Shown piece by piece: positions 18,321 to 24,686 of a DNA stretch of 64,000 nucleotides; the first letter of the stretch is position 1, and the number at the start of each line of letters is the position of its first letter. The position numbers were made by a program, and so were the translations under genes. Source of the stretch: an uncultured Eudoraea sp. (GTDB lineage Bacteria; Bacteroidota; Bacteroidia; Flavobacteriales; Flavobacteriaceae); the NCBI GenBank assembly GCA_947258555.1, contig CAMYJF010000015.1, positions 1 through 64,000 on the forward strand, in the 5' to 3' direction. The notes beneath the pieces were generated by a model. It did no database searches, was not told the DNA's origin, and saw only the letters and a program-made list of their open reading frames with translations.

Positions 18321-18824
18321 TTATGGATTCAGACTGTTTAAATTGTGACCCTCATAAAAGCCAAGATCTTTTTCTTTACGATATTTTACCCAAAAAGCGA
18401 TCTGACCTGTGTGATAGGATAAGTGCTCAACTACATGCATAATAATTCCCAACCCATCCAGTTCAAAGCCTTGCACCTCACGTTTTTGCAGCAATTGATC
18501 CTCCTCGCAATTTTCGATCACGGTTATGGCTTCTTTGACAGTCGTTTTTAATTCCTCTAGCAAGGCCAATTTCGTTTGGTCCTGTGCTTGTGAGAATTCC
18601 ACATCTCTCTCCCGGGTATCGGGCATTTCACCAAGTGAGGAAATAATATATTGGCGGATATTTCCTGAAAGGTGCAGGAGTAAATTCGCCATACTGTTCA
18701 ATTGTGGATTGGGCTTTTCCCATGTCTCATTATCATCGAACTGAGCCAGGCTCTTCTCGATCATCCGCACGCTTTCCTGCATACGATATTTCGCATTTTC
18801 CTTTACACTTACAATCCAGTTCAT
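18321..18824 (-). CDS. DinB/DUF1572-like protein inside the his operon
   Basis: This 167-aa four-helix protein has the DinB-superfamily pattern of metal-ligand histidines: [12 protein letters not shown] (about 48-59) and [16 protein letters not shown] near 131-146. Members include metal-dependent thiol transferases and proteins of unknown role. It overlaps hisA by 4 bases upstream and ends 4 bases before hisF, so it is translated as part of the his mRNA. No direct role in histidine synthesis is known. It might protect or process an intermediate, or simply be a hitch-hiker. Function is not inferred further. Confidence 0.82.
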
Positions 18825-22346: not shown

Positions 22347-23638
22347 TCTTCGTTCTTTTTCAATGCATTAAGTCGGACACGTACTGCATTCTTATGCCCT
22401 TCCAGCTTTTCAGCTGCCGCCATCGTCTCAATAGCACGACCAATCTTTCCCAATCCTTCGGGCGCTATCTCCTGGAAGGTTATACTTTTTAAGAAGGACT
22501 GAAGTGTAACTCCGCTAAACTGTTTTGCATAGCCATTGGTTGGCAGGGTGTGATTGGTGCCAGAGGCATAATCCCCGGCACTTTCAGGTGTAAAAGGCCC
22601 CAGGAAAACAGACCCTGCATTACGAACCCGATCTTCATAAAATGTATCCTCATTTGTATTGATAATAAGATGTTCGGGGGCGTATTCATTCATAAACTCG
22701 GCAATATCTTCCCGGTCCTGGAAGCAAACAGCGCGACTATGTTGCAGGGCTTGAGATGCTAGTTCTTTCCTGGGCAGGTTTTCCAATTGATCCGATAGCT
22801 TTGCTTTTACCGACTCTATCAATTTTTGAGATGGCGTAAGCAAGATCACCTGGCTATCCGGCCCGTGTTCGGCCTGACTCAAAAGATCGGCGGCTATGAA
22901 TTCAGGATCTGCCGAATCATCGGCTATAACCATTAGCTCACTAGGGCCTGCCGGCATATCGATAGCAACGCCCAATTGTGTGGCATAGCTCTTAGCAGCT
23001 GTAACATATTGATTCCCCGGACCAAAAATCTTATATACGGCAGGTATTGTTTTGGTGCCATTGGTCATAGCGGCGATGGCCTGGATCCCTCCTACTTTAT
23101 AAATTGAGTGTACACCACATATGTTCGCAGTATACAGCACTACCGGGTCGATTGTACCATCCTTGCGAGGCGGAGTACACATAAGCACTTCCGGACACCC
23201 TGCTATTGCAGCAGGAATAGCTAGCATTAATAAGGTTGAAAACAAAGGAGCTGAGCCACCTGGAATGTACAACCCAATTTTCTCAATGGGCTGAAAGGTC
23301 TGCCAGCATCTGACGCCAGGCATGGTTTCAACTTTTGCACCTACTACTTTTTGAGCTGTGTGAAAGGCATATATATTGTCTTTTGCCAGGGAGATGGCGC
23401 TTTTTAATTCTTCCGACACCTGCTGTTCTGCCATTCTTAATTCATCGGCAGTAACGATAAGATCGCTTAGGTCCACACCATCAAACTGGCGGGTATAACG
23501 GTACAAGGCTTCATCTCCATTTTGTGCAATGGCATCATAAACTTCGCGCACCAAGGGCTCCAATTCTCTCATCGGTTTAGTACCTCTTTCGCAGAGGGAT
23601 CCCCAAGTATCTTTTGATGGCTCTAGTATCGTTTTCAT
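22343..23638 (-). CDS. hisD: Histidinol dehydrogenase
   Basis: HisD performs the final two oxidations from L-histidinol to histidine with NAD+ and zinc. The 431-aa protein has GLYIPGGSAPLFSTLLMLAIPA, the FGPGNQYV loop, IDMPAGPSE, the QAEHGPDSQ zinc-site motif and the catalytic Glu-His in NEYAPEHLII. It overlaps hisG by 4 bases upstream and hisC by 4 downstream. Confidence 0.97.
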   Translation of the reverse strand: MKTILEPSKDTWGSLCERGTKPMRELEPLVREVYDAIAQNGDEALYRYTRQFDGVDLSDLIVTADELRMAEQQVSEELKSAISLAKDNIYAFHTAQKVVGAKVETMPGVRCWQTFQPIEKIGLYIPGGSAPLFSTLLMLAIPAAIAGCPEVLMCTPPRKDGTIDPVVLYTANICGVHSIYKVGGIQAIAAMTNGTKTIPAVYKIFGPGNQYVTAAKSYATQLGVAIDMPAGPSELMVIADDSADPEFIAADLLSQAEHGPDSQVILLTPSQKLIESVKAKLSDQLENLPRKELASQALQHSRAVCFQDREDIAEFMNEYAPEHLIINTNEDTFYEDRVRNAGSVFLGPFTPESAGDYASGTNHTLPTNGYAKQFSGVTLQSFLKSITFQEIAPEGLGKIGRAIETMAAAEKLEGHKNAVRVRLNALKKNEE

Positions 23639-24492
23639 AGGACCATTTTTTCTATCGGGCAGACAAGGATGCCCTCAGCTCCAGCCGTTCTGAGTTCGTC
23701 TATGACTTCCCAAAAACTTTCCTTTTTAATGACCGTATGCACGGAACTCCAACCTTGTTCTGCCAGGGGCAATACGGTCGGACTGCGCATACCAGGAAGG
23801 AGTTTAGTGATTATATCTAGTTTCTCATTTGGCACATTCATCAGCACATATTTGAATTGTCGTGCCTGCAGGACCGAATTGATCCGGAAAAGAAATTGGT
23901 CTTGTGTGGAACTGTTCTGTGAGCTGCCATTCGAGGCACTGGCTATAACGGCCTCGCTCTTAAGGATAACATCAACTTCTTTTAGATTGTTCTTAAAAAG
24001 CGTACTACCACTTGAGACAATGTCACATATGGCGTCGGCCAGACCTATGTTTGGGGCTATCTCCACAGAACCATTAATGGTGTGCAACTCTGCCTGTATG
24101 CCTTTCTCTTTAAGGAAATTGGACACCGTGACCGGGTACGAGGTAGCGATGCGTTTGCCTTGCAGATCTTCAATCGAATTATAGCTAAAAGATTTGGGCA
24201 CGGCCAGGGAAACCCGGCATTTTGAGAATCCTAGTTTTACTAAACTCCTTATCCCCTCTCCATTCTCTTCTAATAGGTTTTCACCGACTATAGCCAGGTC
24301 TACAACACCATCTCGTAAATATTGTGGAATATCACTGTTTCTCAGGAAGAAGACTTCCAAAGGAAAATTTCGCGCACTGGCCTTTAACTGGTCTATCCCA
24401 TTATCTATGGATATTCCAGAATCTTTGAGCAGGCGAAGCGATTCTTCATTGAGTCGCCCTGATTTCTGTACGGCAATTTTTAGTGTTTTCAT
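23635..24492 (-). CDS. hisG: ATP phosphoribosyltransferase, long form
   Basis: HisG catalyses the first, feedback-controlled step of the pathway. The 285-aa length indicates the long form, with a C-terminal ACT-like regulatory domain (about 215-285, MNVPNEKLDIITKLLPGM and VHTVIKKESF). The catalytic part includes KIAVQKSGRLNEESL and the PRPP-binding DIVSSGSTLFKNN. It is the first structural gene after the leader peptide and attenuator, so its expression is expected to depend on histidyl-tRNA supply. Confidence 0.96.
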   Translation of the reverse strand: MKTLKIAVQKSGRLNEESLRLLKDSGISIDNGIDQLKASARNFPLEVFFLRNSDIPQYLRDGVVDLAIVGENLLEENGEGIRSLVKLGFSKCRVSLAVPKSFSYNSIEDLQGKRIATSYPVTVSNFLKEKGIQAELHTINGSVEIAPNIGLADAICDIVSSGSTLFKNNLKEVDVILKSEAVIASASNGSSQNSSTQDQFLFRINSVLQARQFKYVLMNVPNEKLDIITKLLPGMRSPTVLPLAEQGWSSVHTVIKKESFWEVIDELRTAGAEGILVCPIEKMVL

Positions 24493-24523
24493 TTTTCAAT
24501 TGATTATAGACGATCAGGCGGAT

Positions 24524-24562
24524 AAAAAAAACAAACCCGTCTGATCGCTCAAACGGGTTTGT
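24524..24562 (-). terminator. His operon attenuator terminator
   Basis: A perfect 10-bp stem (ACAAACCCGT at 24531-24540 pairing with 24553-24562) has a 12-base loop. On the minus strand it is followed by a run of T (24524-24531). It lies between the leader-peptide stop and the hisG start and would stop transcription before hisG when formed. Confidence 0.88.
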
Positions 24563-24603
24563 CTATGTAGCTACACACAATACATTCCTACCTCGCTTGA
24601 GCG
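24546..24603 (-). promoter_or_regulatory. Candidate antiterminator pairing in the his leader
   Basis: In the leader RNA, CGCUCAAGCG (24603-24594, inside leader codons 13-17) can pair with CGUUUGAGCG (24555-24546) over 10 bp with one G-U. The second strand covers the last bases of the terminator 5' arm and half of its loop, so this pairing should compete with the terminator. A ribosome stopped at the leader stop codon would cover the first strand; one stalled at the early His codons would leave it free. Confidence 0.65.
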
Positions 24604-24641
24604 CCAGGGTCAAAATGAAGATGTGTGTGCTTCTTGTTCAT
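24588..24641 (-). CDS. His operon leader peptide
   Basis: A 17-codon reading frame encodes MNKKHTHLHFDPGAQAR, with His at positions 5, 7 and 9, ending in TAG 25 bases before the attenuator stem. Three His in five residues, directly upstream of a terminator and hisG, is the hallmark of a ribosome-mediated attenuation leader. The ATG lies 45 bases beyond the stop of the prohibitin-like gene. The start is supported by a -7-like box just upstream. Translation is inferred from layout alone. Confidence 0.85.
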   Translation of the reverse strand: MNKKHTHLHFDPGAQAR

Positions 24642-24648
24642 CAGGCTA

Positions 24649-24677
24649 TAAAAATAGAATTTATTTTAGTATTGCAA
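24649..24677 (-). promoter_or_regulatory. Candidate his operon promoter
   Basis: TTG (24675-24677, minus strand) is followed after 18 bases by TATTTTTA (24649-24656), one mismatch from TAnnTTTG. Transcription would begin close to the leader ATG at 24641, giving a nearly leaderless leader peptide. Confidence 0.38.
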
Positions 24678-24686
24678 AAATTGTGT

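Follow-up and report, generated by a model that had tools for sequence, protein, structure and literature searches.

Evidence for a ribosome-mediated transcription attenuator upstream of the his operon of Flavobacteriaceae and, in many members, a further conserved pairing near the hisG start codon

Organization of the his leader

The window, a stretch of 64,000 nucleotides from an uncultured Eudoraea sp. (contig CAMYJF010000015.1), carries on its minus strand a his operon with the gene order hisG-D-C-B-H-A-(DinB-like)-F-IE. The DinB-like gene, also classified as DUF1572, is located inside the operon between hisA and hisF (18321-18824, minus strand). Between the upstream Band-7 gene and the hisG start codon (ATG at 24492, minus strand) the following elements were delineated, listed in the direction of transcription:

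24649..24678, minus strand: probable promoter, judged from sequence, consisting of TTTG (24678-24675), an 18-nt spacer and TATTTTTA (24656-24649)
24588..24641, minus strand: leader peptide ORF MNKKHTHLHFDPGAQAR with stop codon TAG; 198 of 201 family members have an orthologous His-rich ORF
24621..24630, minus strand: segment 1, GCACACACAU, 5' arm of a pause-type hairpin, overlapping His codons 5 and 7
24592..24604, minus strand: strand A, GCGCUCAAGCGAG, 5' arm of the antiterminator within the 3' end of the ORF, identified by its duplex with B and by covariation
24570..24585, minus strand: segment 2, AUGUAUUGUGUGUAGC, pairing with segment 1
24545..24562, minus strand: strand B, the terminator 5' arm ACAAACCCGUUUGA plus the loop GCGA, common partner of A, C and D
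24531..24544, minus strand: strand C, the terminator 3' arm UCAGACGGGUUUGU
24524..24531, minus strand: T run of the terminator, recognized from sequence
24508..24521, minus strand: strand D, CCGCCUGAUCGUCU, a weak and shifted form in the genus of the window, paired to the loop of the terminator and to the top of C
23635..24492, minus strand: hisG, first gene of the his operon (Pfam HisG and HisG_C)

An earlier note, made from the letters of the window, had placed a His-codon peptide ORF at 24641-24588 of the minus strand ahead of a terminator and hisG, and the ORF is indeed present there. Three of its 17 codons (codons 5, 7 and 9) specify histidine, the family median being four His codons per leader ORF. 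The terminator, ACAAACCCGTTTGA-GCGA-TCAGACGGGTTTGT, comprises 14 pairs with one G-U (-21.0 kcal/mol) and is followed by a run of eight T; the perfect 10-bp stem described earlier is the lower part of this strong terminator's 14-pair stem.

The promoter of the window probably belongs to the TTTG / TAnnTTTG type of Bacteroidetes, which it resembles in sequence, with a variant -7 box. In relatives, TAnnTTTG occurs within 70 nt 5' of the leader ATG in 49 of 119 cases, compared with 8% expected by chance. The putative -7 box of the window ends only 7 nt 5' of the leader ATG (24656-24641, minus strand), compared with 17-19 nt in some other genera; at this short distance, the mRNA of the leader may be nearly leaderless in the genus of the window.

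Folding of the leader gave z = -5.4. The complete A:B duplex, formed by GCGCUCAAGCGAG and ACCCGUUUGAGCG, reaches -21.5 kcal/mol, whereas shuffled sequences average -9.1 +/- 2.7 kcal/mol and none of 2000 shuffles was as good. Within this duplex lies the antiterminator pairing recognized before, in which CGCUCAAGCG (24603-24594) does pair with CGUUUGAGCG (24555-24546). The 1:2 helix, with 24630-24621 paired to 24585-24570, has an energy of -15.9 kcal/mol, a value matched by 86 of 2000 shuffles, and forms part of the minimum-energy fold. It is the counterpart of segments 1:2 in classical attenuators. The view that the leader departs from the classical four-segment design in favour of a compact two-structure form fails on this point, because the pause-type hairpin is also there and its position is conserved. 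When a stalled ribosome was represented by masking in equilibrium folding, the terminator was still preferred and no switch became visible; antitermination would therefore have to be kinetic, A pairing with B before C is made, as is usual for attenuators.

Conservation of the leader among relatives

The comparison of hisG upstream regions drew on one genome for each genus of the family, on further families of the order, on the class and on 80 named close relatives, which include Maribacter, Flagellimonas, Arenibacter and Zobellia. A His-rich ORF followed by a terminator precedes 198 of 201 Flavobacteriaceae hisG genes, a set that includes a handful of members from sister families of the order, compared with 2.2% of Markov-randomised upstream regions. 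The terminator is found in all 198 family leaders that have the ORF, and one of the three exceptions (L201), inspected by eye, encodes a peptide of this kind that starts with GTG. Most sampled Bacteroidia likewise have a His-rich leader ORF upstream of hisG: in the class-wide sample it is convincing at 23 of 27 loci (L122-L148, the doubtful ORF of L122 being left out). The leader is present irrespective of the sequence further upstream, which differs in several relatives. Moreover, a genome-wide search for the A-B motif in 60 relatives yielded at most one match per genome, always 5' of hisG, and the reversed control yielded zero.

The spacing within the leader is also preserved. In most leaders 22, 25 or 28 nt separate the first His codon from A, and in 83 of 95 the 3' end of A precedes the end of the stop codon by 5 nt. 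Given the usual ribosome footprint, these distances suggest that a stalled ribosome would spare A, or nearly so, and that a ribosome terminating at the stop codon would cover it.

Covariation of the leader helices

Base pairing was evaluated by counting paired and changed positions in 49 leaders and by a cognate test, in which the pairing energy of each leader with its own partner strand was compared with that obtained after permuting partners among species. Since kinship inflates the cognate comparisons, helices slid out of register and a tree-based test matter as controls.

For A:B, 92.5% of positions are paired, 26 cells are changed on both sides, and the covariation is 0.175 compared with at most 0.090 for slid helices; for B:C, 98.3% are paired and the covariation is 0.188 versus 0.078 slid. 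Within the family A and B hardly vary, so that most pairs between them contribute little covariation. Cognate A:B partners pair better than permuted ones both in the family (-13.35 versus -11.91, 0/2000) and in divergent Bacteroidia, whose stems differ considerably (-12.9 versus -9.66, 0/2000), and the pairing is kept with other letters in L026 (CCACCACGGC/GCUGUGGUG), L020 (GCGACCGG/CUGGUCGC) and L134. The 1:2 helix is 70.3% paired, with a covariation of 0.189 against up to 0.157 when slid by one, and a cognate energy of -10.34 versus -8.00 for permuted partners (0/2000). The covariation of A:B and B:C is established, that of 1:2 more weakly. Conserved His codons in related hisG leaders and covariation in both the terminator and the antiterminator helix, the comparison that the earlier note had proposed as a check, are thus found, and the mutually exclusive antiterminator that it postulated is backed by compensatory changes in distant relatives.

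Strand D between the terminator and hisG

The earlier note missed a fifth strand, D, which lies between the terminator and hisG. In many relatives D is located about 16 nt 5' of the hisG start codon and is complementary to the 5' arm and loop of the terminator, for example GUUUGAGACAAUC with GAUUGUUUCAAAC in L009, GUCUGAGUAAAA with UUUUACUCAGAU in L118 and GUUUGAGUAGUU with GAACUGCUCAAAC in L091. Across the 49 leaders 89.6% of B:D positions are paired and 60 cells show changes on both sides; the covariation of B:D, 0.383 (shuffled, 0.216 +/- 0.011; slid, at most 0.097), is the strongest among all helices tested. Cognate B:D partners pair at -9.44 versus -7.25 for permuted ones (sd 0.15). As MAFFT columns misplace D in leaders with 4-nt loops, position-anchored and tree-based tests were added. 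With D set by its distance to the ATG and only the loop letters considered, complementarity is 4.86 of 6 compared with 3.61 +/- 0.09 (0/5000); on a hisG tree with 65 leaves, 16 changes on both sides between standard pairs were counted, compared with 1-3 when D was shifted. B:D covariation in relatives is established as well.

The 3' end of D lies 15.8 +/- 2.1 nt before the ATG and 25.5 +/- 5.5 nt from the T run; the former distance being the steadier, D is tied to the start codon. In L098, L084 and L103 small extra hairpins are inserted between the terminator and D, and D stays near the hisG start codon. According to the position-anchored test a canonical D is present in 77 of 198 leaders. Leaders without it that have a sufficiently long spacer pair with the whole apical hairpin at -11.2 compared with -8.82 when permuted (0/2000), and in 17 family leaders the spacer is too short for D. 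At several loci of the Maribacter/Flagellimonas group, among them L194, L206, L154, L171 and L029, the complementarity of D extends over the entire top of the terminator hairpin. Such a D is itself a small hairpin (e.g. GUUUGGUUUCCAAAC), so that it could also contact the terminator loop to loop.

In relatives B:D thus constitutes a conserved pairing near the start codon, and it and the antiterminator exclude each other; D has its strong canonical form in other genera, and in the window B:D is weak. The window form, CCUGAUCGU, has an energy of -12.7 kcal/mol, and 76 of 2000 shuffles were as good. In the sister genome L003 a change from G to A in the loop is matched by a change from C to U in D, keeping the pairing; in L002 the pairing is degraded.

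D-like strands were also sought at other amino acid operons of these genomes. In the genome of the window (L286, contig C3) a Phe-rich leader peptide (MSLNYFWNRFFFYFYYLGAKGLL) precedes a terminator that lies only a few bases 5' of pheA, and most sampled relatives (L279-L298) have this arrangement too. No convincing D was found at these pheA attenuators, where the spacer between terminator and start is mostly about 7-25 nt and mostly too short; in pheA rows with long apparent spacers the presumed start is probably an internal ATG. The thrA loci yielded few terminators, and the candidate leaders of ilvD are located a long way 5' of the gene. At ilvD, loci L229, L230 and L232 of relatives have short Ile/Val-rich ORFs (e.g. 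MKLRVVIISVIVIIIIPW) with a terminator and about 180-200 nt more of leader, a possible branched-chain attenuator.

Proposed mechanism and alternative explanations

The conserved His-rich ORF and terminator, which are established, together with A:B covariation and compensatory changes, make classical leader-peptide attenuation very likely, and we conclude with high confidence that the his operon is preceded by a ribosome-mediated transcription attenuator. Stalling and termination in vivo we infer from the sequence as follows. When charged His-tRNA is scarce, the ribosome would stall at His5-His9 of the leader ORF, break the 1:2 helix and leave strand A uncovered; A would capture the emerging B, the terminator would be blocked and hisG transcribed. 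With plentiful histidine, the ribosome would reach the stop codon and cover A, allowing B to pair with C, and transcription would end at the T run. D, a further partner of B or of the loop in the family, about 16 nt before the hisG AUG, would act solely in read-through mRNA: RNA polymerase is already beyond the terminator when D is synthesized, so that D cannot influence termination of the transcript that carries it. D probably acts on the read-through mRNA, perhaps on translation of hisG, as its position and pairing suggest. In Flavobacterium johnsoniae, structure between -20 and +20 tunes (lowers) initiation (PMC6847099), and D sits at the upstream edge of this stretch.

The same F. johnsoniae observation (PMC6847099), combined with a D that pairs with B about 16 nt before the hisG AUG, could be taken to indicate attenuation at the level of translation only, or a regulatory uORF, with no terminator function for the hairpin and T run. 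We regard this as very unlikely, since practically all relatives have a GC-rich stem with a T run behind it, even those without room for D, and an initiation-blocking stem would not need a T run. A structured leader with covariation would also be expected of a trans-acting or metabolite-sensing element such as a T-box or riboswitch that controls hisG, with the ORF incidental; against such an element, which appears exceedingly improbable, stand the match between the regulatory codons and the product of the operon and the result of the Rfam search, which returned no match for the window at the gathering threshold and nothing credible for the leader at E <= 5. In the window the upstream Band-7 gene ends about 45 nt before the leader ATG, so that the hairpin might be its ordinary terminator, accompanied by a chance His-rich ORF. 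This explanation has a practically negligible probability and is largely refuted by conservation: the leader occurs irrespective of an upstream sequence that differs in several relatives, and His codons, frame and A:B pairing are conserved, the chance rate being 2%.

As to D, we tentatively propose a dual switch, plausible but short of an even chance, in which B is common to A (on), C (transcription off) and D. In the read-through mRNA, B:D, which would probably form a pseudoknot together with the lower stem of the terminator, would lower hisG translation except where a ribosome stalled on the leader holds B on A, so that one codon sensor would act on transcription and then on translation. D might instead be without a regulatory role, insulating the read-through mRNA by keeping B off the hisG start region, or stabilising its 5' end. 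Such a function would fit the lineages that lack D or have little room for it, the 17 short-spacer leaders included; covariation maintained through many loop changes, and a distance that is fixed relative to the start codon (15.8 +/- 2.1 nt) instead of the terminator (25.5 +/- 5.5 nt), speak against it, and we consider it plausible but less likely than not.

If D works as in the proposed dual switch, a single codon sensor would govern both synthesis and translation of the same mRNA, and the conserved additional RNA pairing near the hisG AUG may provide a second layer of regulation. Attenuation is in the textbooks, chiefly from work on proteobacteria; here it extends through a whole family of an abundant marine phylum. 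As mRNAs of the phylum Bacteroidota are without Shine-Dalgarno sequences, the leader ribosome must load by another route.

Comparison with known systems

The trp leader of Bacillus subtilis resembles the proposed arrangement in combining transcription attenuation with a second structure in the read-through mRNA that affects translation of the first gene. It differs in its sensor, since tryptophan is sensed by the TRAP protein and not by stalling on a leader peptide. With the his attenuator of E. coli and other gammaproteobacteria (RF00514) the leader shares a His-codon leader peptide, a pause-type helix, an antiterminator and a terminator 5' of hisG, but here the 3' end of the ORF contains the antiterminator strand and, in many members, the extra strand D follows 3' of the terminator. 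Neither the His_leader covariance model (RF00514) nor that of Bacteroid-trp (RF01692) matched the window at the gathering threshold or the leader at E <= 5, and no other relevant or credible Rfam match was obtained in these searches; weak matches to L10_leader and a snoRNA were far below their cut-offs.

In Flavobacterium psychrophilum, according to passages of Guerin et al. 2021 (PMC9723704), hisG and pheA are preceded by structured 5' elements that are conserved in the family and absent from Rfam, and leader-peptide attenuation was inferred there for amino acid operons. That element concerns the same gene and family; its anatomy and mechanism are absent from the main-text passages, and the supplement may hold details. 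The earlier description of a his leader of this kind in a flavobacterium as little described therefore holds only in part, as a hisG 5' element had already been reported (PMC9723704). Passages of another study place his leader-peptide attenuators in proteobacteria and some Firmicutes, with candidates in the Bacillus cereus group, Peptostreptococcaceae and Erysipelotrichales (PMC9413887); these share the His-rich leader peptide with terminator and antiterminator but belong to another phylum, and the same passages mention no D-like strand. The LEU element 5' of actinobacterial leuA (PMC1262725) likewise has regulatory codons in a leader ORF, and a conserved pseudoknot near the start of the regulated gene; it differs in that its base stem pairs the regulatory codons with the Shine-Dalgarno box and no terminator is described there. 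No description of a D-like strand was found in searches of open-access literature; attenuation across bacteria is also the subject of Lopatovskaya et al. 2010 (cited in PMC4833913). The attenuator is of a long-known type, and strand D is what is new in the version of this family.
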